The position numbers and the translations under genes are program-made. This document shows, in pieces, positions 1-14,495 of a stretch of DNA of 22,224 nucleotides. The stretch's first letter is position 1. Every line of letters starts with the position of its first letter. The notes beneath the pieces are model-generated. The model did not search any database. It was given only the letters and a program-made list of their open reading frames with translations, and had not been told where the DNA came from. The stretch is from a virus: positions 1 through 22,224 of the IMG/VR virus record IMGVR_UViG_3300049433_000079; one strand, given 5' to 3'.

Positions 1-661
1 CATCGCTCCCGTGCACGCTGGTGACGTGGGGAAAATATCCTTGCCAGTCCGGGAGCGATTGGACGTAGCTGTAAACGTCGGCCACTGGCAACGCCAGCCC
101 GCGCTCGATTGCCAGGTAGGGCTCGGACTCGGGGTCGTAGTACGGCGCGGGCATTTGCGTCTCTATCAGCGTCGGATTCAGTGCCAGGATGTACGACTGG
201 AACATCCACGTCGCCTCGTCGCCGGCCTCGTCATTGACCCCGAAATTCTCGACGATCACGTCCGCGACGATCCCATGCGGCGCTTGATTCGCACTCGACC
301 CCGGCACCCCGTAGTCGGTGACGATGACGGCGCCGGGACCGAACTGGGAATTCATCTGCGCTTGCAACTCCGCGCCGGGATTATGCACCGCTTGCGCCCC
401 GAAGTAGGTCGGCGTCGTGGTCGTGCCGTCGATCCCGTACTGCGTCGAGTCGCCGAGCAGCGCGACAGTGACAACGCGCGGGACGCATGTGGCGGCCGGC
501 GCGGCCACGGCCGCAGGAGACGTGTCCTCACCGCCGCCGCACGCCGCAATGCACGCGGCGGCAAGCAGGGAAAAAGTGGCGCGGATCACGGAGAGGAATT
601 CATCGGGGCCGATCCACTTGGTCATAGTCTTGGTCATAGTCTTGGTCATAGTCTTGGTCAT
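1..661 (-). CDS. SGNH/GDSL-type hydrolase, probable lipoprotein (3' end outside window)
   Basis: The reverse strand is open from an ATG at 661 to the left edge, giving 220 residues with no stop. It has a GDS nucleophile block (G70-D71-S72, context VALLGDST) and a GVND block at 141-144, with a Gly-Ser-Ser turn (GVPGSSANQ) between them; these are blocks I, III and probably II of SGNH hydrolases. The block V Asp-His pair is not clearly seen and may lie beyond the edge. The N-terminus has a hydrophobic stretch followed by IAAC-GGG (Cys41), a plausible lipobox, so the enzyme is probably exported and lipid-anchored. Family knowledge: these enzymes hydrolyse esters, often acetyl groups on glycans; the substrate is unknown. 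A GGAG ribosome-binding site lies about 8 bases upstream. The four N-terminal Met-Thr-Lys repeats offer alternative starts. The gene runs against the virion operon, which suits a lysogenic-conversion or surface-modification role (inference). Confidence 0.75.
   Translation of the reverse strand, partial: MTKTMTKTMTKTMTKWIGPDEFLSVIRATFSLLAAACIAACGGGEDTSPAAVAAPAATCVPRVVTVALLGDSTQYGIDGTTTTPTYFGAQAVHNPGAELQAQMNSQFGPGAVIVTDYGVPGSSANQAPHGIVADVIVENFGVNDEAGDEATWMFQSYILALNPTLIETQMPAPYYDPESEPYLAIERGLALPVADVYSYVQSLPDWQGYFPHVTSVHGSD
617..661 (-). repeat. 12-bp tandem repeat at the start of the SGNH hydrolase gene
   Basis: The plus strand shows three perfect copies of CTTGGTCATAGT followed by a partial fourth. 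On the coding strand this reads ATG-ACC-AAG-ACT, giving Met-Thr-Lys-Thr repeated and ending Met-Thr-Lys. The unit is a multiple of three, so copy changes would alter only the number of N-terminal residues and of in-frame start codons. Confidence 0.95.
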
Positions 662-680
662 GTCTGGTCTCCATTCACAC
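656..680 (-). repeat. Duplicated translation leader, copy 1
   Basis: This 25-bp segment holds the ribosome-binding site and start codon of the SGNH hydrolase gene. It matches 915-939, ahead of the neighbouring 75-residue gene, with one mismatch (coding strand GTGTGAATGGAGACCAGACA versus GTGTGAGTGGAGACCAGACA). Both copies reach into the first codons (ATGACC). Duplication of a leader, or of a whole small gene cassette followed by divergence, is the likely origin. Confidence 0.9.
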
Positions 681-692
681 CATAGGCGGCAT

Positions 693-920
693 TCATTCCG
701 GTGCGAGGCGCACGTCATATCGATCTCGCGTGGTGCTCAGATGTGCGAGGCGCACGTCATACTCCTCGCCCCTCATGACCACCACATATCGGACGGCCCC
801 GTAAATCAGGTCAAGCCGCTCACGACACGCTCGCGCAGCCCTGGCCGTTGCCATTCTGCCGACGATTTCATTGGTCCTGATGTCCACTACGAGGTAGGGG
901 TGGCTATTCTTGGTGGTCAT
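693..920 (-). CDS. Small phage protein of unknown function (75 aa)
   Basis: The chosen ATG at 920 has a GGAG ribosome-binding site in the same context as the hydrolase gene downstream; an upstream start at 1016 would run through the promoter and is not preferred. The core reads as a compact alpha/beta domain: YLVVDIRTNEIVG, then an Ala/Arg-rich helix (ATARAARACRERLD), then YGAVRYVVV. This resembles short phage proteins of the pattern 'strand, turn, strand, basic helix, strand' whose role is unknown. The C-terminus contains YDVRLA twice, encoded by a 19-bp direct repeat. It probably forms a leftward operon with the hydrolase from the promoter at 988-1016. Confidence 0.75.
   Translation of the reverse strand: MTTKNSHPYLVVDIRTNEIVGRMATARAARACRERLDLIYGAVRYVVVMRGEEYDVRLAHLSTTRDRYDVRLAPE
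701..719 (-). repeat. 19-bp direct repeat, copy 1 (second copy 743-761)
   Basis: GTGCGAGGCGCACGTCATA occurs at 701-719 and again at 743-761, 42 bp (14 codons) apart and in the same frame. It encodes Tyr-Asp-Val-Arg-Leu-Ala twice near the C-terminus of the 75-residue protein, so the tail looks like an internal duplication. Confidence 0.9.
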
Positions 921-1410: not shown

Positions 1411-1426
1411 TGTTTCACGTGAAACA
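1411..1426. promoter_or_regulatory. parS: parS centromere site (ParB-binding palindrome)
   Basis: TGTTTCACGTGAAACA is a perfect 16-bp palindrome identical to the canonical bacterial chromosomal parS sequence bound by ParB/Spo0J. It lies in a 150-base gap between the XRE-like gene and the tRNA-like gene, with no parA or parB in the window. Exact matches of this length do not arise readily by chance: about 22,000 positions over 4^16 gives roughly 5 in a million under equal base frequencies. The sequence identity is seen directly; that ParB binds here is inferred. Confidence 0.85.
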
Positions 1427-2396: not shown

Positions 2397-2591
2397 GTGA
2401 ATATTATGAATATAAATTTTGACTGGGGTCAGATTGACTTCAGTATTTTCAACATTGTTGTATTCATTTTATTTCCTGGTAGGTTGCGGGACAGGGGCGC
2501 GTGCTGGGGTAAGCCGATGCATGGTTTGAACAGGGGGGATCGGCTTGAGTCGTGGAGTTGGGGGCCGTGGGGGGTAGCGGTTCAGAGGTAG
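2397..2591 (+). CDS. Doubtful small ORF between the 84-aa gene and terL
   Basis: GTG 2397 starts 4 bases after the previous stop, and the TAG at 2591 ends 8 bases before ATG 2600 of terL, so it fits the gap exactly. An ATG at 2406 lies in frame. The first 25 or so residues are hydrophobic and AT-rich in coding (FNIVVFILFPG); the rest is Gly/Trp/Arg-rich and does not look like a folded protein. No good ribosome-binding site is visible. It may be a real small membrane peptide, or simply an untranslated spacer; the AT-rich first 80 bases might instead serve as a promoter or DNA-bend region. Confidence 0.3.
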   Translation: MNIMNINFDWGQIDFSIFNIVVFILFPGRLRDRGACWGKPMHGLNRGDRLESWSWGPWGVAVQR

Positions 2592-2599
2592 GCGGGGGT

Positions 2600-4378
2600 A
2601 TGGGCGATCTTTCTGTCGAGCGCTTCGAATCCTTCTGCGGCAAATTGAAGGTGGACACGAAGGAGCGCGGCCGGGTGCCGCTGGCGTGGTTGGGGACGCA
2701 GAGGTACTTCGTTCAGGAGGTGGCGGCGGGGTTGAGGGAGGATGTGCACGAGTTCGTGATCTTGAAGGGGCGGCAGTTGGGGATCAGCACGGTATCGCTG
2801 GCGCTCGATCTGTACTGGCTGTTCAAGAACCCGGGGTTGCAGGGGTTGTTGGTGACGGACACGGACGAGAACCGGGAGTTGTTCCGGTCGTACCTGACGC
2901 AGTACATCGACAGCCTGCCGGCGACTGCCAAGCCTAAGGGTGGGGGGCACAACAGGGTGCAGCTCACGCTGGCGAACAATGCGCGGCTGATGTACTTGGT
3001 GGCGGGGACGCGCAAGCAGGGGAACTTGGGGCGCGGGAAGGCGGGGAACTTCATGCATGCGACGGAGTGTTCGTCGTGGGGTGACGAGGAGGGGTACTCG
3101 TCGCTGATGAACACGCTGGCGCAGCAGAATCCGAACCGGCTGTACATCTTCGAGTCGACGGCGCGCGGCTACAACATGTTCTTCGAGCAGTGGGAGACGG
3201 CAAAGAAGTCGAAGACGCAGAGGGCGGTGTTCATTGGGTGGTGGAGGAATGAGCTTTACCGCAAGGAGCGCGGGTCGGTGGAGTTCGGTACGTATTGGGA
3301 CGGCGCGCCGACGTCTGACGAGAGGGTGTGGATCAAGGATGTGTTCGAGCGGTACCACTTCAATATCCAGCCCGAACAGTTGGCGTGGTGGCGGTGGTAC
3401 GTGTCGGAGCGGATGAAGGGTGATGAGTTGCTGGCGTTGCAGGAGATGCCGCCGTCGGAGGAGTACGCGTTCCAGCTTTCGGGGTCGAAGTTCTTCTCGG
3501 GTGAGCGGGTGAACTTGCAGTATCAGGAGGCGATGAGGCGGCCGGAGCCTGGGTACTACCGCTACAAGTTCGGGCTGCACTTCGAGGACACGGAGTTCGT
3601 GGAGACGAACGTCGACAACGCGGAGGTTCAGATTTGGCAGTTGCCGGTGGAAAACGCGGTGTACGTGATCGGGGCTGATCCGGCGTACGGGTCATCGGAA
3701 TGGGCGGACGAGTTCGCGATTTGCGTGCTGAGGTGCTACGCGGATCGCGTCGAGCAGGTGGCGGAGGTGGGGACGCCAGATTGGACGGAGGCTCAGTTCG
3801 CGTGGGTCATCTCGCACCTGGCCGGCAGCTACAAGGGCGCGATGCTGTGCCTGGAAATGCAGGGGCCGGGCGGGACTGTCTACAACGAGTTGCAGAACCT
3901 CAAGCGAGCGGCCGGCAGCATGCGCGCTGGCGATCCGAGGCTTGAGTTGTACGACGTGGTCGGGCGGATGCGGGATTACCTCTGGCGCAAGCAGGAATCG
4001 ATTTCGGGGCAGGTCGGGGCCTACCAGTGGCAGACCAACCTCAAGGAGAAGATTCGCATGTTCACGACGCTGCGCAACTACTTCGAGCGCGAAATGATCG
4101 GGCTGCGCTCGATGGCTTGCATCCAGCAATTCAGGAACATCCACCGAGACGGGGACAAGATTGGCGGGGAGGGCCGGGCCAAGGATGATCGGGTGGTCGC
4201 GTTGGCCATAGCGATGGTGGCATGGAACGACTGGATCATGGGGGAGATGCGGGCGAACAACCGGACGTGGGCGCTGGAGAACCGCGCCCCCGACGAGCCG
4301 CATGTCGTCACGACGGTGGAGCGCGGGGTGCTGAAGTATCTGAGCGGCCAGGGCATCACCTTCACGCCTCCCCGCTGA
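2600..4378 (+). CDS. terL: Terminase large subunit (TerL), packaging ATPase and nuclease
   Basis: 592 residues. ATPase half: a Walker A-like loop KGRQLGIST (56-64) in the common phage form with Arg-Gln before Gly; a Walker B-like segment ending at Glu156 (FMHATE); and a coupling motif YIFESTARG (182-190). RNase H-like nuclease half: VIGADPAYG (Asp360), LCLEMQGPGG (Glu419) and DDRVVALAIA (Asp529/530), the three acidic positions expected of TerL nucleases. The enzyme pumps DNA into the prohead through the portal and cuts the concatemer. ATG 2600 is chosen for its GGCGGGGG ribosome-binding site; an in-frame ATG at 2552 would add 16 Gly-rich residues of poor quality. No recognisable small subunit lies upstream. 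Confidence 0.95.
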   Translation: MGDLSVERFESFCGKLKVDTKERGRVPLAWLGTQRYFVQEVAAGLREDVHEFVILKGRQLGISTVSLALDLYWLFKNPGLQGLLVTDTDENRELFRSYLTQYIDSLPATAKPKGGGHNRVQLTLANNARLMYLVAGTRKQGNLGRGKAGNFMHATECSSWGDEEGYSSLMNTLAQQNPNRLYIFESTARGYNMFFEQWETAKKSKTQRAVFIGWWRNELYRKERGSVEFGTYWDGAPTSDERVWIKDVFERYHFNIQPEQLAWWRWYVSERMKGDELLALQEMPPSEEYAFQLSGSKFFSGERVNLQYQEAMRRPEPGYYRYKFGLHFEDTEFVETNVDNAEVQIWQLPVENAVYVIGADPAYGSSEWADEFAICVLRCYADRVEQVAEVGTPDWTEAQFAWVISHLAGSYKGAMLCLEMQGPGGTVYNELQNLKRAAGSMRAGDPRLELYDVVGRMRDYLWRKQESISGQVGAYQWQTNLKEKIRMFTTLRNYFEREMIGLRSMACIQQFRNIHRDGDKIGGEGRAKDDRVVALAIAMVAWNDWIMGEMRANNRTWALENRAPDEPHVVTTVERGVLKYLSGQGITFTPPR

Positions 4379-8578: not shown

Positions 8579-9595
8579 ATGCCGGTTTTGGGTACGGGCG
8601 TACTGCCCAGCGGTGGCGCGGGTTCTTTGGGACAGGAACTCCAATACGTCACCCGACGGGCCTTCGTCAAGAAACTCGTCGTCCAGATTTACAACACCAG
8701 CCCCCTCGCCGCCGCGCTCATCGCGAACTCGCAGCCCGCCTCGGGCGGCGTGTCCTCGGTGACGATCCCGGCGCAGGGCGCGCAGTTCGTCAACATGCAG
8801 TGGGTGGGCTACGACGGATCGTTCAATCAGCCGTCGATACAGCCCGGCGTGACGAACCTCGAATTCAACCTGAAGGGCGCGGTCATCCCGATCCCCTACC
8901 TGGGGTTCGAGGGCCTGCTTCAAGACGCACACGAGGTGATCCCGCTCCTGGCGGCGCGCATGAACGACGCGAGCAATGTCTACTGCGACGGCGTCGCAAC
9001 GGCGCTGTTCACCAACACTTCCAACACGCAGCAGATCATCGGCTTGCCGGGCGCGGTAGATGACGGCACGAACCTCGTCAACTACGGCAACCAGTCCCGC
9101 ACGCTCAATCCTTGGCTGAAGTCCAAGCGCTACGCCGCAGGCTCTGTCGCCCCGACGCGCGCGCTCGTGATGCAGTACATCACCGGGACGCTGAAGAATG
9201 GCGGCGAGCTGCCGAACTTCGGCATCATGGGGCCGGCGACCTGGCAGACGCTTGCCAACGACTACATCGCCAACGAGTCGTACGTCATCACCCCCGAGAA
9301 AGGTTTCGACGATGAGCCCTGGGGGGCGCGAAGCGCCTTCCGCGCGCTGAAGGTGTCAGGGATTCCAATCTACCTCGATCCGTACTGCCCCGAGGGTACC
9401 CTGTACCTGCTCAACACCGGGTGCATGGCGTTCTACATCCACGAGCGCGCCGCGTTCGCTTTCACCGGCTTCGAGTCCACCCTGTCGAACAACCAGCTTG
9501 GCTACATCGGCGCGATCCTGAGCCTGCTTGAACTCGTGTGCGCGAAGCCGAAGGTTTGCACCGTGGTGACGGGCTTCACTTTCGTCACCATCTAA
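8579..9595 (+). CDS. Major capsid protein (338 aa)
   Basis: ACGGAGC lies 6 bases before ATG 8579. Length, place after the scaffold and the alpha/beta make-up fit an HK97-fold major capsid protein. Residues about 25-45 (YVTRRAFVKKLVVQIYNTSP) resemble the N-arm start. PIPYLGFEGLLQDAHEVIPL (about 101-121) and the following helix LLAARMNDASNVYCDGVATALF resemble the long spine helix. The C-terminal part (GIPIYLDPYCPEGTLYLLN, then FYIHERAAFAFTGFES) is the beta-rich P-domain typical of phage capsids. It forms the icosahedral shell. No protease cleavage site can be assigned. Confidence 0.85.
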   Translation: MPVLGTGVLPSGGAGSLGQELQYVTRRAFVKKLVVQIYNTSPLAAALIANSQPASGGVSSVTIPAQGAQFVNMQWVGYDGSFNQPSIQPGVTNLEFNLKGAVIPIPYLGFEGLLQDAHEVIPLLAARMNDASNVYCDGVATALFTNTSNTQQIIGLPGAVDDGTNLVNYGNQSRTLNPWLKSKRYAAGSVAPTRALVMQYITGTLKNGGELPNFGIMGPATWQTLANDYIANESYVITPEKGFDDEPWGARSAFRALKVSGIPIYLDPYCPEGTLYLLNTGCMAFYIHERAAFAFTGFESTLSNNQLGYIGAILSLLELVCAKPKVCTVVTGFTFVTI

Positions 9596-9607
9596 ACGGG
9601 AGCGATC

Positions 9608-10864
9608 ATGTCGTTCAACAAAATATCCGGCCTTCAACCGCTGCTTGCCGCCGTGCCCTTCAGCCTGGGCGCGTCGGAATCGATGATCCTGCCGGCTGGG
9701 CAGGGCATCATCGGGGCGTTCGGGTCGGTCACGACGCCTCAGATCGCGTCTGGCAATCCGCTGTCGGGCCAGTACATCATCGGGATGGGGCAGTACACGA
9801 CCCTGCAGGCATACGACCAGGGGCTCTACACCTGGCGCAACATGCAGGTCAACCCGCAGTCCTTGGCGACGGTGTCGAGCGACGGCCAGAACTACCGCCT
9901 CGCCAACAACACCGGCTGCGTGATTGGCGCGCTCATCACGAACGCGGGTTCTGGCTACACGAACGGGTTTTACGGCTACAACCAGCAAGGCGCGGCCATC
10001 ACCATCCAGAACGGCGCGGTGACGCCCGGCAACACCACGCTGACGGTCACCCCTTCGGCTGGCGGATCGCTCTGGAACGCCATCGTCGGCGGCGCGGTGA
10101 ACACGACCATCGGCATCACCGGCACGCTGTACGAGAACCAGCCGTTCGGCGGCACTGGAACGTCGGTCACTGGGTCGGGCGGGTCGGCCTACACTCGCGC
10201 GCCGCTGCTGGTCTTCTCTCCGCCACCCAATCAGGGCGCGCAGCCCTACATCCTGCCGACGGCGGTCTGCACGATATCGGCTGGCGCGATCAACTCGGTC
10301 ACCGTCATCAACCAGGGCGCCGGCCTTCAGGGTCTGCCCAACATCACCGTCGTTCCACAACTCGGCGACACGACCGGTGCGGGCGCGGTGCTGGGATGGA
10401 CTTCCGGCAACTCGGCGATGGTCGGCACCGGCACCATCCTCGCGCTTTACCCGGCCGCGCACGGCACTGCTGCCGTCACCGCGGTGCCGACGCTCACGTT
10501 CTCGCCCGCATCGACGACGGCCGCGACCGCGATCATGAACTTCACGATCACGTCGTTCACGGCCGGCACAGCGGGCGTGGCCTACGTGGCGGCCGGAGCG
10601 GCGTTCAACGGCGGTATCGTCGCGGGAACGGCGGCGAACACCAACCCGATCCTGGACAAGGCGCTGTCGATCCCGATCTTCCCGCCCGTGAACGTCGCGG
10701 CGACGACAGGACTGCCATCTCTGTCCGGCCCGTTCGGTGGAGTCAACATCCAGGCGGTGCCGACGATAACCTCGTTCTCCAGCGGAGCGGCACCATCGAC
10801 TGCCGCGGCGACGACGGTGAACGTGGGCGGAGCGTCCGACACGCTGTTCCTCTACTCGATCTGA
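9608..10864 (+). CDS. Beta-rich virion protein with GxGY repeats, probable decoration or fibre (418 aa)
   Basis: ATG 9608 has a GGGAGC ribosome-binding site, 12 bases after the capsid stop. Lys and Glu are nearly absent; the protein is rich in Gly, Ala, Thr, Ser and Val, typical of all-beta extracellular virion proteins. Two stretches (about 107-119 and 228-265) contain 'ITNAGSGYT' and 'VINQGAGLQGLPNITVV...TGAGAVL', related to repeats in the head-tail adaptor and nozzle downstream. The first 90 residues are less repetitive and may be the capsid-binding part. A place right after the capsid gene favours a head decoration protein or head fibre; a second shell protein is also possible. Confidence 0.7.
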   Translation: MSFNKISGLQPLLAAVPFSLGASESMILPAGQGIIGAFGSVTTPQIASGNPLSGQYIIGMGQYTTLQAYDQGLYTWRNMQVNPQSLATVSSDGQNYRLANNTGCVIGALITNAGSGYTNGFYGYNQQGAAITIQNGAVTPGNTTLTVTPSAGGSLWNAIVGGAVNTTIGITGTLYENQPFGGTGTSVTGSGGSAYTRAPLLVFSPPPNQGAQPYILPTAVCTISAGAINSVTVINQGAGLQGLPNITVVPQLGDTTGAGAVLGWTSGNSAMVGTGTILALYPAAHGTAAVTAVPTLTFSPASTTAATAIMNFTITSFTAGTAGVAYVAAGAAFNGGIVAGTAANTNPILDKALSIPIFPPVNVAATTGLPSLSGPFGGVNIQAVPTITSFSSGAAPSTAAATTVNVGGASDTLFLYSI

Positions 10865-10874
10865 AGGTCCGGCC

Positions 10875-11186
10875 ATGCTGACCGAACTCCACGCCTTCCT
10901 CGCGCATTTCGGCGAGCCTGCCGACAAGAACGCCTCACACGTGGGTGTCGTCCCGCGCCCCGTTTGGGACGACATTGTCACGGCGCTCGCCAGCGAGGCC
11001 ATGTCTGTGGCCACGACTACGGCGCTGCGCGTGCTTGGCGCGTCCTATGCCGAGGTCACGCCAAGCACGGTAGTGGTGCAACTCGCCGCAGGCGGCTTGT
11101 GTGCGCTGAAGGCTCTGGCTTCGGCTTCGGCCGCCAAGGCCGCGCCGCCGGCCATCCCCGTCGTCCCCGTCCGGCCGTCGGCCTGA
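10875..11186 (+). CDS. Small virion-region protein (103 aa)
   Basis: GAAGGTC precedes ATG 10875, 10 bases after the preceding stop. Residues 1-20 (MLTELHAFLAHFGEPADKN) are a helix; the middle (about 46-80) is Ala/Val-rich and moderately hydrophobic (TALRVLGASYAEVTPSTVVVQ), and the C-terminus is Ala/Pro/Val-rich. No signal peptide or clear membrane helix is present. The family is not recognised. It may be a structural or chaperone-like component between the decoration protein and adaptor genes. Confidence 0.6.
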   Translation: MLTELHAFLAHFGEPADKNASHVGVVPRPVWDDIVTALASEAMSVATTTALRVLGASYAEVTPSTVVVQLAAGGLCALKALASASAAKAAPPAIPVVPVRPSA

Positions 11187-11213
11187 TCCACCCACAACCC
11201 GCAGAGATGACCT

Positions 11214-11546
11214 ATGCGTGAAATTTTCGTCACCAACACCAACGACTTCCACCACTCCGACCGCTTCAACGGCCAGGAGTACGAGTTTCCGCCCAAGGAG
11301 CGCGTCGCGATCTCGACGGACGCCGCGTCCCACCTGTTCGGCTTCAACATGCCAGACAAGACCGAGACGCTCACACGCCTTGGATGGGCGTCGAGGTTCA
11401 ATCCCAAGATCAAGAACTGGGAGGATGACCCGCGCGGCGTGGAGAAACTGCGCAGGTTCGTCTTCACCAAGGCCGTGATGGTCGAGGCACCGGTCGAAGA
11501 AGTGGCTGCCGAGGCTGAGGAAGGCCAAGACGACCGGGCGTCGTAA
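11214..11546 (+). CDS. Conserved-looking phage virion-region protein (110 aa)
   Basis: ATG 11214 follows a short AGAG site. The fold reads as beta-rich: REIFVTNTNDFHHSDRFNG, then YEFPPKERVAISTDAASHLFGF, then TRLGWASRF. This 'RFNG..Y.FP..E.V.I..DAA.H.FGF...TRLGW' pattern occurs in small phage proteins encoded next to capsid or adaptor genes in podo- and siphophages. The C-terminus is acidic (EEVAAEAEEGQDD). Function is unknown; a head-completion or minor head protein is the likely role from context. The next gene starts 12 bases downstream. Confidence 0.7.
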   Translation: MREIFVTNTNDFHHSDRFNGQEYEFPPKERVAISTDAASHLFGFNMPDKTETLTRLGWASRFNPKIKNWEDDPRGVEKLRRFVFTKAVMVEAPVEEVAAEAEEGQDDRAS

Positions 11547-11558
11547 GGGCGACTCGTC

Positions 11559-12407
11559 GTGACGCTGCTCAGCGACTACGAGGCCCAGGTCGCTGACCTT
11601 CTGCACGACCCGAACAATGTCATCTGGTCGACGCTACAGCTCGACCGATACATCAACGAGGCCCGCCGGCAGTTGGTCATGGACACGGGCTGCTTGCGCG
11701 TGCTCCAGACGGCCTACCTCTGGGCCGGTCAGGAGTCCTACACCTTCGGTCAAGTCACTGGCGCGGTCATCAACGCGGCCGGCTCGCACTACGTCACGCC
11801 CGTCGTGAATTTCACGGGCGGCGGGGGCAGCGGTGTAGCCGCCACGGCGACGCAGAGCGGGGGTGCGGTCAACGCCCTCGTCTTTTCGTCGTTCGGTGGC
11901 GGCTACACCAGTGCCCCCGCCGTCACGATCACGGATGTCGGCGGGGGCACGGGCGCGCAGGTCGTGGCCGGGGTCATCAGTGCCAACACCTACGACGTAC
12001 TCGGTGTCAGCGTCGTGTGGGGAACGGAGCGGTATGCCCTGTTTTGGGCCGCGTTCTCCAACTTCTCGGCCAAGCTGCGCGTCTGGCTTTCCACCGCCTA
12101 CCAGCGCCAGCCAGAATGTTGGGCGGTGTACGGCAACACGCAGTTCTTCGTTGGCCCACCGCCCGACCAGCCCTACCAGTTCGAGGTTGACTCGCTGGTG
12201 CTGCCGACGCCGCTGGCCGACTACACGACCATCGACCCGATCCCGGTGGTCGTGCAAGACCCGATCAAGTTCTACGCCGCGCACCTGGCGAAGATGAACA
12301 ACCAGGCGTACGGCGAGGCCGAAATGATGCTCGCGGCGTACAACCGGCGCATGCACGAGGTCGAAGCCGCCTACACGCGCCGCATTCCCAACCCCTACGA
12401 GGTTTGA
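11559..12407 (+). CDS. Head-to-tail adaptor with inserted GxGY-repeat domain (282 aa)
   Basis: GTG 11559 has AAGGGCG upstream. The helical N-terminus (LLSDYEAQVADLLHDPNN, then QLDRYINEARRQLV) and C-terminal half (IKFYAAHLAKMNNQAYGEAE, then MLAAYNRRMHEVEA) are typical of podovirus adaptor proteins (T7 gp11/P22 gp4-type role), which sit under the portal and recruit the nozzle. Between them, residues about 66-140 form a Gly-rich insertion with two repeats (PVVNFTGGGGSGVAATAT; GGGYTSAPAVTITDVGGG) that is not part of the ordinary fold. The fold resumes at YDVLGVSVVWGTERYALFW. It is followed after 3 bases by the nozzle gene. Adaptor function is inferred from helical pattern and gene order. Confidence 0.75.
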   Translation: MTLLSDYEAQVADLLHDPNNVIWSTLQLDRYINEARRQLVMDTGCLRVLQTAYLWAGQESYTFGQVTGAVINAAGSHYVTPVVNFTGGGGSGVAATATQSGGAVNALVFSSFGGGYTSAPAVTITDVGGGTGAQVVAGVISANTYDVLGVSVVWGTERYALFWAAFSNFSAKLRVWLSTAYQRQPECWAVYGNTQFFVGPPPDQPYQFEVDSLVLPTPLADYTTIDPIPVVVQDPIKFYAAHLAKMNNQAYGEAEMMLAAYNRRMHEVEAAYTRRIPNPYEV

Positions 12408-12410
12408 TCC

Positions 12411-14495
12411 GTGGCCAGCCGAAGCTCGGGGGTCAGCTTTTCGTCCGATCCGAAAAGCAAGCAACGCGAAGAGGAATCGGCCGAGACGATCGTCCTGCGC
12501 TCGTTCGGCGGCATCAACACGCAGAGCCCGCGCGAGAACATCGCCGACGACGAGTTCTACTGGCTCGAAGAGCTGATCCCGATATCGGCCGGCAACCTCG
12601 CGCCAGTGCTCGGGCCAGGTAGCAACATCGTCACCATCTCGGGCGAGACAGGAGCGCCATCGCTCACCGTCCCATTCTCATCTGTCGGCGTCGATTCAAC
12701 GCTGGCGATCTGGTCGAACACCGGCAATGCGTGGGTCGGAACAATGGCCGCGCCCATAGTGTGGACAAAAGTCGCAACCGGCCTGTTCACGAGTGGAAAG
12801 ACGGCGGCGACACCATGGAGCAACCTGGGATTCCTGATCGTCGATCCCGTCGCGGGGTACTACGACTACGGGGTGACGGCGGCAAACACGTTCACGAACC
12901 TATCGGGCCAGCTCTACGGCCCGGCCATGACCGCGACCACCCCGGCGCAATTGGCGACTGCGACGGTGCCGGCGCTGCGCGTGGTTGGCGCGCCGGGGTC
13001 GGGCGGGACCATCGGCGCGAGCGCATCGGTCGTCGAGATTTCCATCACGGCGGCGGGCACCGGGTACTCGGCGGGCGATCTGCTCGTGGCCACGGGCGGC
13101 ACGCTTACGACGTCATCCTCCGCGCCTGCTTCGCAGCAGAACCAGCCCCTCATCCTGAGCGTGACGACGATCAACACCAGCACAGGCGCGGTGACCGGGA
13201 TATCGCTCACGTCCGTGGGTTACTACCATGCCGGACCGGCCAACGCCATCGCGTTCACTGGTGGGACAGGTACCGGGTTCACCGGAACGGCGACGTGGGC
13301 TGTCGCAAACCCCTACCTCATCACCCCTGGGCAGGCGTACGTCGCGCCCGTTGTGCAGGCGTTCATCGGGGGGGTGTGGGTGGCCTACGCGATGTCCGTC
13401 TTCACGAGTGGAACGCTGCTCGGAACGGCCATTGCGACCTATGCCGGCCGGGTGTGGATTGCCATCGACCGCACGGTGCAGTTCACCGACGCGCTGTCGT
13501 ACAACTCGTTCGCGAACTCGGGTTCGGCGTTCACGATCAATGATTCCTACCTTCACAACAACATCACCGCGTTGTTCGCGGCGAACAATTACCTCTACAT
13601 CTTCGGGGACGACTCGATAGACATCCTGTCGAACGTGACGGTGGTCAGCGGGATCGCGCAGTTCAGTCGCATCAACGCTTCCTCCTCGGTCGGTACAACG
13701 CAGCCGAACTCGATATTCCCTTTCTTGCGCGGCTTGGCGTTCTGCAACAACTCGGGCTTCTACGTGATTTCCGGCGCGACGCCGGAGAAGGCGAGCGACA
13801 AGCTCGACGGCCTGATTGCCTCGATCGTCTTCTCGGCACCGGTCTACGGCTGTCAGGTGATGGTGGAAAACATCCTCTGCGCGGCCTTCCTCATCAGCTT
13901 CAAGGACAGCTTCGTGCGTTCCCCAACGCAGACGCGCAGCATCCTGGCGGTGCGATTCAGAGATCGGTGGTGGCTGACTTCTCAGCTCCCGGCGACCGGG
14001 GTCAACCTCGGGGCGGTGTTCTCGCTGCCGATCAACGGGCTGTCGACGATGTTTGGGTGGTCCGGGAACACGCTGTTCAAGCTGCTGAGTGAGCCCAACA
14101 TCAACCCGTGGTTGCTCAAGACGAAGCTGTGGGACGCCCAGACCCCGATCCTCGACAAGCAGATGATCGACGTCGGATTCGGGGCGGTGTTCGCGGGCGC
14201 ATCGACGCCCGGGTTCACGCTGACGGTTGACACCGAATTCACGTCGATAGCGGTGACGCTCGGGCGGTTCACCCCGATTGTCCAGTGGGTCAACAACTCC
14301 AATCAGGTCGTCCAGTGGACGAACAACGCCGGACAGATTGTCCAGTGGGAGATAGCCCCGATAGGATACCGGCTCCTCACCGGGCCGGCCAACAGCGGCG
14401 CGGGGAAGTACGCGGGGATCACGGTGACGGGCGGCACGAACGTCACGCAGATTCGCATGCTGGCCCTGGAGCTTGAACGCCGGAGGCGCTGGTGA
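12411..14495 (+). CDS. Tail nozzle / hub protein, beta-propeller type (694 aa)
   Basis: Starts at GTG 12411. The N-terminus LRSFGGINTQSPRENIADDEFYWLEELIPI (in outline, residues 29-58) followed by GNLAPVLGPG is typical of podovirus nozzle proteins (P22 gp10/T7 gp12-like role), which extend the tail below the adaptor. Many beta-strands with Trp/Tyr-rich turns (YLYIFGDDSIDIL; FYVISGATPEKASD) suit a beta-propeller. Residues about 205-300 contain GxGY-type repeats similar to those in the adaptor, and 623-647 hold a 10-residue QW-NN repeat. The gene ends with a basic LERRRRW and overlaps the next gene by 4 bases. Confidence 0.75.
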   Translation: MASRSSGVSFSSDPKSKQREEESAETIVLRSFGGINTQSPRENIADDEFYWLEELIPISAGNLAPVLGPGSNIVTISGETGAPSLTVPFSSVGVDSTLAIWSNTGNAWVGTMAAPIVWTKVATGLFTSGKTAATPWSNLGFLIVDPVAGYYDYGVTAANTFTNLSGQLYGPAMTATTPAQLATATVPALRVVGAPGSGGTIGASASVVEISITAAGTGYSAGDLLVATGGTLTTSSSAPASQQNQPLILSVTTINTSTGAVTGISLTSVGYYHAGPANAIAFTGGTGTGFTGTATWAVANPYLITPGQAYVAPVVQAFIGGVWVAYAMSVFTSGTLLGTAIATYAGRVWIAIDRTVQFTDALSYNSFANSGSAFTINDSYLHNNITALFAANNYLYIFGDDSIDILSNVTVVSGIAQFSRINASSSVGTTQPNSIFPFLRGLAFCNNSGFYVISGATPEKASDKLDGLIASIVFSAPVYGCQVMVENILCAAFLISFKDSFVRSPTQTRSILAVRFRDRWWLTSQLPATGVNLGAVFSLPINGLSTMFGWSGNTLFKLLSEPNINPWLLKTKLWDAQTPILDKQMIDVGFGAVFAGASTPGFTLTVDTEFTSIAVTLGRFTPIVQWVNNSNQVVQWTNNAGQIVQWEIAPIGYRLLTGPANSGAGKYAGITVTGGTNVTQIRMLALELERRRRW
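14281..14348 (+). repeat. 30-bp in-frame repeat near the end of the nozzle gene
   Basis: TCCAGTGG recurs at 14281, 14311 and 14341, exactly 30 bp apart. The protein reads IVQWVNNSNQ, VVQWTNNAGQ, IVQWEIAPIG, so two full 10-residue copies and a partial third. The regular Gln-Trp pairs suggest a strand repeat or intersubunit contact. Confidence 0.85.

Follow-up and report, generated by a model that had tools for sequence, protein, structure and literature searches.

An exact copy of the 16-bp parS palindrome of bacterial chromosomes is present between two elements of a tailed phage genome, and the same core recurs upstream of the terminase gene in related phages that have no identified parA or parB of their own. 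Judged from the sequence comparisons described below, the 16-mer is very probably a real loading site for host ParB that has been kept by selection, and these phages probably borrow the chromosome-segregation machinery of their hosts. The more specific proposal, that host ParABS acts through this site on phage genomes outside the chromosome and partitions or positions them, has in our estimate about an even chance of being correct.

A chromosomal-type parS site in a phage genome

The window (the whole stretch of DNA analyzed) is a 22,224-base fragment from IMG/VR that belongs to an uncultured tailed phage and in which terminase, capsid and other virion genes are present. It contains the perfect 16-bp palindrome TGTTTCACGTGAAACA at positions 1411–1426 (no strand assigned). 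This is the sole match in the window at up to three mismatches (0.03 expected in shuffled sequences), and being exact it confirms the claim of an earlier sequence-only reading that a phage genome carries a chromosomal-type parS. The site is intergenic: gene gC ends 86 bp before it and a tRNA-like element starts 53 bp after it. It was placed outside any credible gene because the ORF starting at position 1410 reads through the tRNA-like element.

Gene gC (1043–1324, + strand) encodes a 93-aa protein with an HTH repressor-like assignment. It matched PHROG 12107 “transcriptional repressor” weakly (E=5e-4); its AF2 model is all-helical (pLDDT 75), with the phage Rep repressor 5d50 as the best PDB fold match (probability 1.00 but E=0.34). 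The predicted protein may thus be tentatively termed repressor-like. Homologs of gC were found in L157, L158, L161, L216 and L219, as well as in the parS-bearing L335. On the other side of the site, gE (2138–2392, + strand; 84 aa) is conserved upstream of the terminase gene, with tblastn homologs in 11 relative loci, including L122 and L131. Since both gC and gE have homologs in relatives, both flanks of parS are phage DNA. This rules out host contamination or a piece of host chromosome, an origin that the sequence-only reading had named as fatal to its claim.

The locus was anchored on the terminase large subunit gene (2588–4378, + strand; PHROG_2, 8.5e-17), and the major capsid protein gene (8579–9595, + strand; PHROG_9953, 5.4e-24) served as the clade marker. 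Comparison of the window with 50,697 phage records gave no close match, and no closely related isolate or plasmid was found. Complete relatives indicate that the whole genome of the window phage is probably 34–41 kb long.

Recurrence of the site upstream of the terminase gene

Perfect parS cores were identified in 8 of 37 non-redundant regions upstream of the terminase gene. These eight lineages contribute nine sites, against a total of 0.0015 expected for 115 kb of non-redundant sequence upstream of terminase. A search of related phages for the same palindrome at the same locus, which had been suggested as a check, was therefore positive in seven lineages besides the window. All of the sites fall 0.8–2.3 kb upstream of terminase. 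Relative to the terminase match, their positions are −1177 (window), −821 (L128), −2264 and −2209 (L340), −2136 (L344), −2063 (L334/L335), −1572 (L346), −1626 (L395) and −1207 (L397). The last four lineages were obtained in a later, independent terminase-alignment scan of IMG/VR, and in each of them the site lies within the same 0.8–2.3 kb interval. The 414 kb of downstream sequence contains only two sites, both representing the coding coincidence described below.

Each site-bearing phage has one or two sites, located between the accessory/early genes and the late genes led by terminase. In L335 and L346 parS follows a primase/helicase gene, and in L344, L395 and L397 it is placed at the junction of leftward and rightward genes. 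Outside the core, nothing visibly similar was seen in the flanks of the nine sites; the same core is nevertheless shared by the distant, AT-richer L395 and L397 and by the GC-rich window phage.

The perfect site is absent from 29 of the 37 regions, including those of the two phages closest to the window, L122 and L131 (terminase identities of 83% and 82%), and it is therefore dispensable and quickly gained and lost. Absence from all close relatives, which the sequence-only reading regarded as counting against the site, was thus observed in part: L122 and L131 lack it, and seven other lineages carry it. No exact site was detected at the capsid loci of the wider clade, many of which do not include the region upstream of terminase; the L395 and L397 sites emerged from the terminase scan after the capsid loci had given none.

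In a census of every perfect 14-bp palindrome in 44 dereplicated relatives (747 kb), GTTCCACGTGGAAC showed the highest recurrence of the 69 palindromes counted (five genomes) and GTTTCACGTGAAAC was found in two genomes, the first-order expectation being about 0.003 for each. Intergenic copies of GTTCCACGTGGAAC occur in three of the five genomes (G014, G030 and L128). The in-gene copies of G018, G020 and L173, located in the gene after the capsid gene, were rejected as parS sites, as they reflect a coding coincidence within a conserved SAGGS[TL]WN peptide. An in-gene GTTTCACGTGAAAC of G002 was considered ambiguous and left out of the counts. This perfect copy (L205/L206, position 16101) is in frame within a virion gene, and its codons (GTT TCA CGT GAA ACG) are mostly A/T-ending despite the GC-rich genome. 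One-mismatch sites in G021, G027 and W02 were not counted (about 0.5 such matches expected by a hand estimate).

The region upstream of terminase also harbors a conserved non-coding module, of which the window has a degenerate copy, AAGGAATTCCTTGGG ... CCCCCAAAAA (1981–2050, + strand). Its form in relatives is approximately CATAATnnCCATTATG ... CAAGGAATTCCTTGGG ... GGTGACCCCCAC ... CCCCAAAAATTTTT, also given with the ending CCCCCACAAAAATTTTT. The module is present in the window and in L128, L335, L340, L344, L337, L339, L140 and L129, and a function in packaging, replication or regulation is possible. In the window and in L128, L335, L340 and L344 it lies 0.2–0.8 kb from parS, at varying distance and in varying order (reversed in L128). 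A further palindrome, AAGGAATTCCTT, recurrent in 7 genomes, is part of this module and was rejected as a parS candidate.

Comparison of the core with chromosomal parS

Single-step symmetric changes of the core can give 21 variants, of which only T5C/A12G is seen in the clade; the pattern used in the site search already allowed T5C, and the 21-variant count is independent of that pattern. In Burkholderia parSc1, symmetric changes compatible with ParB binding are restricted to positions 1-16 and the T5C/A12G transition (PMC5450999). The sole variant of the clade is thus the only internal symmetric change known from that study to preserve binding. The phage sites accordingly show the features of chromosomal-type parS: an invariant core within TGTTTCACGTGAAACA, with variation confined to the outer bases and T5C/A12G. 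The chromosomal sites of Burkholderia chromosome 1, Pseudomonas and Bacillus have the identical 16 bp and tolerate the same variants (PMC5450999, PMC7022226); unlike them, the phage parS is carried by a phage, is not accompanied by parAB and lies away from a chromosome origin.

A one-arm T5C change, observed in L335 and L395, is common in host-like genomes, where parS normally has either of the two core forms or the mixed form. In the class of a betaproteobacterial MAG, parS was detected in 50 of 58 genomes (mostly 1–3 sites per genome, two being the usual number), compared with 1 genome for the reversed control. In one host-like genome the sites lie beside mnmE, mnmG, rsmG and parA, and in another in the dnaA-dnaN-recF-gyrB region (gene names read from translations).

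Par and integrase genes

Profile searches, in which bacterial controls gave matches, revealed no ParB_N domain (PF02195) in 40 relative records (34 plus 6 further site-bearing ones), no ParA domain (AAA_31; PF13614) in 12 records and neither domain in the 22-kb window fragment. Three relatives, G030, G210 and G211, are complete (terminal repeats of 127, 121 and 100 bases, respectively) and have perfect sites, yet contain no ParB_N, ParA or integrase domain. The earlier statement that no parA or parB lies nearby therefore holds for three complete site-bearing relatives; for the window, a fragment, it holds within a limited stretch.

Tyrosine integrase genes were found in G021, G027 and G028, none of which has a perfect site. 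No tyrosine integrase was detected in the site-bearing records and no serine recombinase in the site-bearing relatives. The mutual exclusion of parS and integrase is suggestive, though not significant with only three integrase genomes, and several members without an integrase likewise have no site.

Occurrence in other viral sequences

The exact 16-mer was found in at least 120 IMG/VR stretches; the two palindromes used as controls occurred in 1 and 33. Among the matches listed, 73 of 132 sites are intergenic, and the corresponding figure for the control is 3 of 31 sites (p = 2e-6). A ParB_N match was obtained in 5 of the 99 contigs checked (about 95% without), many of which are short fragments, so that the lack of a match says little about any single one. 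Portal, terminase and tail proteins are frequent among the longest ORFs of 56 of these contigs, and therefore at least a good part of the site-bearing contigs are viral. It could equally well prove right or wrong that an orphan chromosomal parS is a widespread and undescribed strategy, by which many unrelated Par-less phages load host ParB for partition or positioning.

Arrays of sites were also observed. Contig L087 (IMGVR_UViG_3300037518_000322; 116,662 bp, 65% GC) has twelve parS-like sites, mostly gaTGTTTCACGTGGAACAt, within 5 kb (8906–13878); this layout is array- or operator-like, and no ParB_N match was found in the contig. Short viral contigs carry arrays of 3–6 parS or near-parS sites (L017:2657-3444, L044:10535-11462, L053, L063 and L116), with no ParB_N match in the L017, L044, L053 and L063 records. 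The L087 and L116 contigs showed no near match to known phages.

Possible roles of the phage parS

ParB loads at parS as a CTP-dependent clamp and then spreads. In the proposed mechanism, the 16-mer would act in cis as a centromere: the chromosomal ParB of the host would load on the phage parS and the phage DNA would become a cargo of host ParA. The circular phage genome would most likely benefit by being stably segregated or positioned for as long as it stays outside the chromosome, whether as a plasmid-like prophage or in a carrier state, with the site standing in for an integrase or a self-encoded parABS. A single origin-proximal parS is sufficient for chromosome partition in P. aeruginosa (PMC4368675). 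A plasmid-like lysogeny or carrier state is preferred because of the repressor-like neighbor, the missing integrase, the small number of sites (one or two) and the precedent of SGI1 (see below). The repressor-like gC (weak match) and the lack of an integrase in site-bearing relatives favor partition without proving it. No member of the group was found as a plasmid record, and a prophage search of genomes revealed no close lysogen; distant matches were in contigs of MAGs, whose binning may be wrong.

A role in the lytic phase, requiring no lysogeny, is possible but doubtful. Host ParB (possibly with SMC) would then localize, condense or protect replicating phage DNA at parS or, in a variant of the same reading, act at a packaging or replication region adjoining the conserved module. 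In each of the eight lineages parS precedes terminase and no integrase was found. These features are consistent with such a role, as are the proximity of parS to the module in five of the phages and the lytic-type replication genes of complete members (e.g. DNA polymerase A and VapE-like primase). Against it, the site has the repressor-like gC as a neighbor and no fixed spacing or order relative to the module, and one or two sites fit partition.

It is unlikely that the site serves titration, in which amplified phage DNA would absorb host ParB and upset host segregation, or silencing, in which ParB spreading would shut off nearby phage genes. One or two sites at low phage copy number are fewer than the ParB copies of a host, which counts against titration in these phages, although arrays in other viral contigs, such as the twelve sites of L087, would fit it. 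Silencing would agree with the location of the site where leftward and rightward genes meet (L344, L395 and L397) and with the reported repression of promoters adjoining parS3/4 by P. aeruginosa ParB (PMC5521831), but the neighboring genes differ between lineages and present no common target.

We consider it very improbable that the palindrome is a parS-like operator of a phage regulator, or a product of chance, and not a ParB site. Chance look-alikes do exist, as the in-gene copies of G018, G020 and L173 demonstrate, but with the very low number of sites expected, a core common to distant phages whose flanks are otherwise unshared, and variation of the ParB-permitted kind only, this explanation has little to recommend it. 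It is also very improbable that a ParB of the phage's own is encoded in the part of the genome missing from the 22-kb fragment, given that ParB_N was absent from all relative records searched, complete site-bearing ones included, and that a ParB encoded by a phage generally has a centromere of its own, such as the 8-bp repeats of RedRock (PMC7157519).

Relation to known systems

Among known systems, the closest precedent for partition by host ParABS is, by analogy, SGI1, whose parS-like sites hijack the ParABS of IncC plasmids (PMC10954446). Like these phages, SGI1 is a mobile element with one or two ParB sites and no parAB of its own. It is stabilized via the ParABS of another replicon, the counterpart of which would be the host system in the case of the phages. 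SGI1 is, however, an integrative element that exploits a plasmid-borne system, whereas here a tailed phage has a site matching the host chromosome parS. As in a parasitic centromere, a parS without parAB resides on a mobile element and matches the parS of host-like genomes.

The cluster A mycobacteriophage RedRock forms an extrachromosomal prophage that carries parABS (PMC7157519). RedRock and phage P1 are temperate phages in which partition replaces an integrase, as is proposed for the window phage, but they encode ParA and ParB with their own centromeres, and the family of the window phage has neither gene. Staphylococcus phage Lacachita also combines an incomplete Par system with the lack of an integrase (PMC10286716); it carries a ParB protein alone, and the window phage family the site alone. 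Parasitic centromeres on SGI1 and parABS-bearing plasmid prophages are thus already known. No report of a phage with an orphan chromosomal parS was found in the open literature, and an earlier one may exist among subscription papers or preprints, which were outside the scope of the search.

If the proposal is true, phages parasitize the centromere system of the host chromosome as a cheap alternative to an integrase or a self-encoded parABS, which would explain the persistence of phages that have neither. With the 16-bp sequence, extrachromosomal lifestyles could then be tested for in metagenomes, and ParB loading could be studied on small, non-chromosomal DNA; host specificity is predicted to be set through the type of parS.

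Other elements of the phage genomes

The tRNA-like element next to parS (1479–1550, + strand; identified by ARAGORN) has an 11-bp closing stem (fold z=-3.5) and a 6-nt anticodon loop with no readable anticodon. It gave no Rfam match at the gathering score, and ARAGORN detected no tRNA in 22 relative loci; possible explanations are decay of a tRNA, tRNA mimicry or a sequencing error in the G run. It is followed by gD (1566–1772, + strand), a small ORF of 68 aa with no assigned function, no homolog in the fetched relative loci and no PHROG match. Divergent from gC is gB (693–1016, − strand; 107 aa), also with no assigned function.

The parS-bearing relative G030 encodes a 106-aa protein (L225:4748-5068) with an Acb2/Tad1 hairpin domain (2.7e-11), likely an anti-CBASS/Thoeris sponge. 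The protein encoded at the left end of the window (2–718, − strand) combines a GDS motif with a lipoprotein-like leader, LLAAACIAACGGG, and is possibly a GDSL/SGNH hydrolase as judged by eye. Four tandem 12-bp units (600–665) give a MTKTMTKTMTKTMTK repeat, which precedes the GDS motif.
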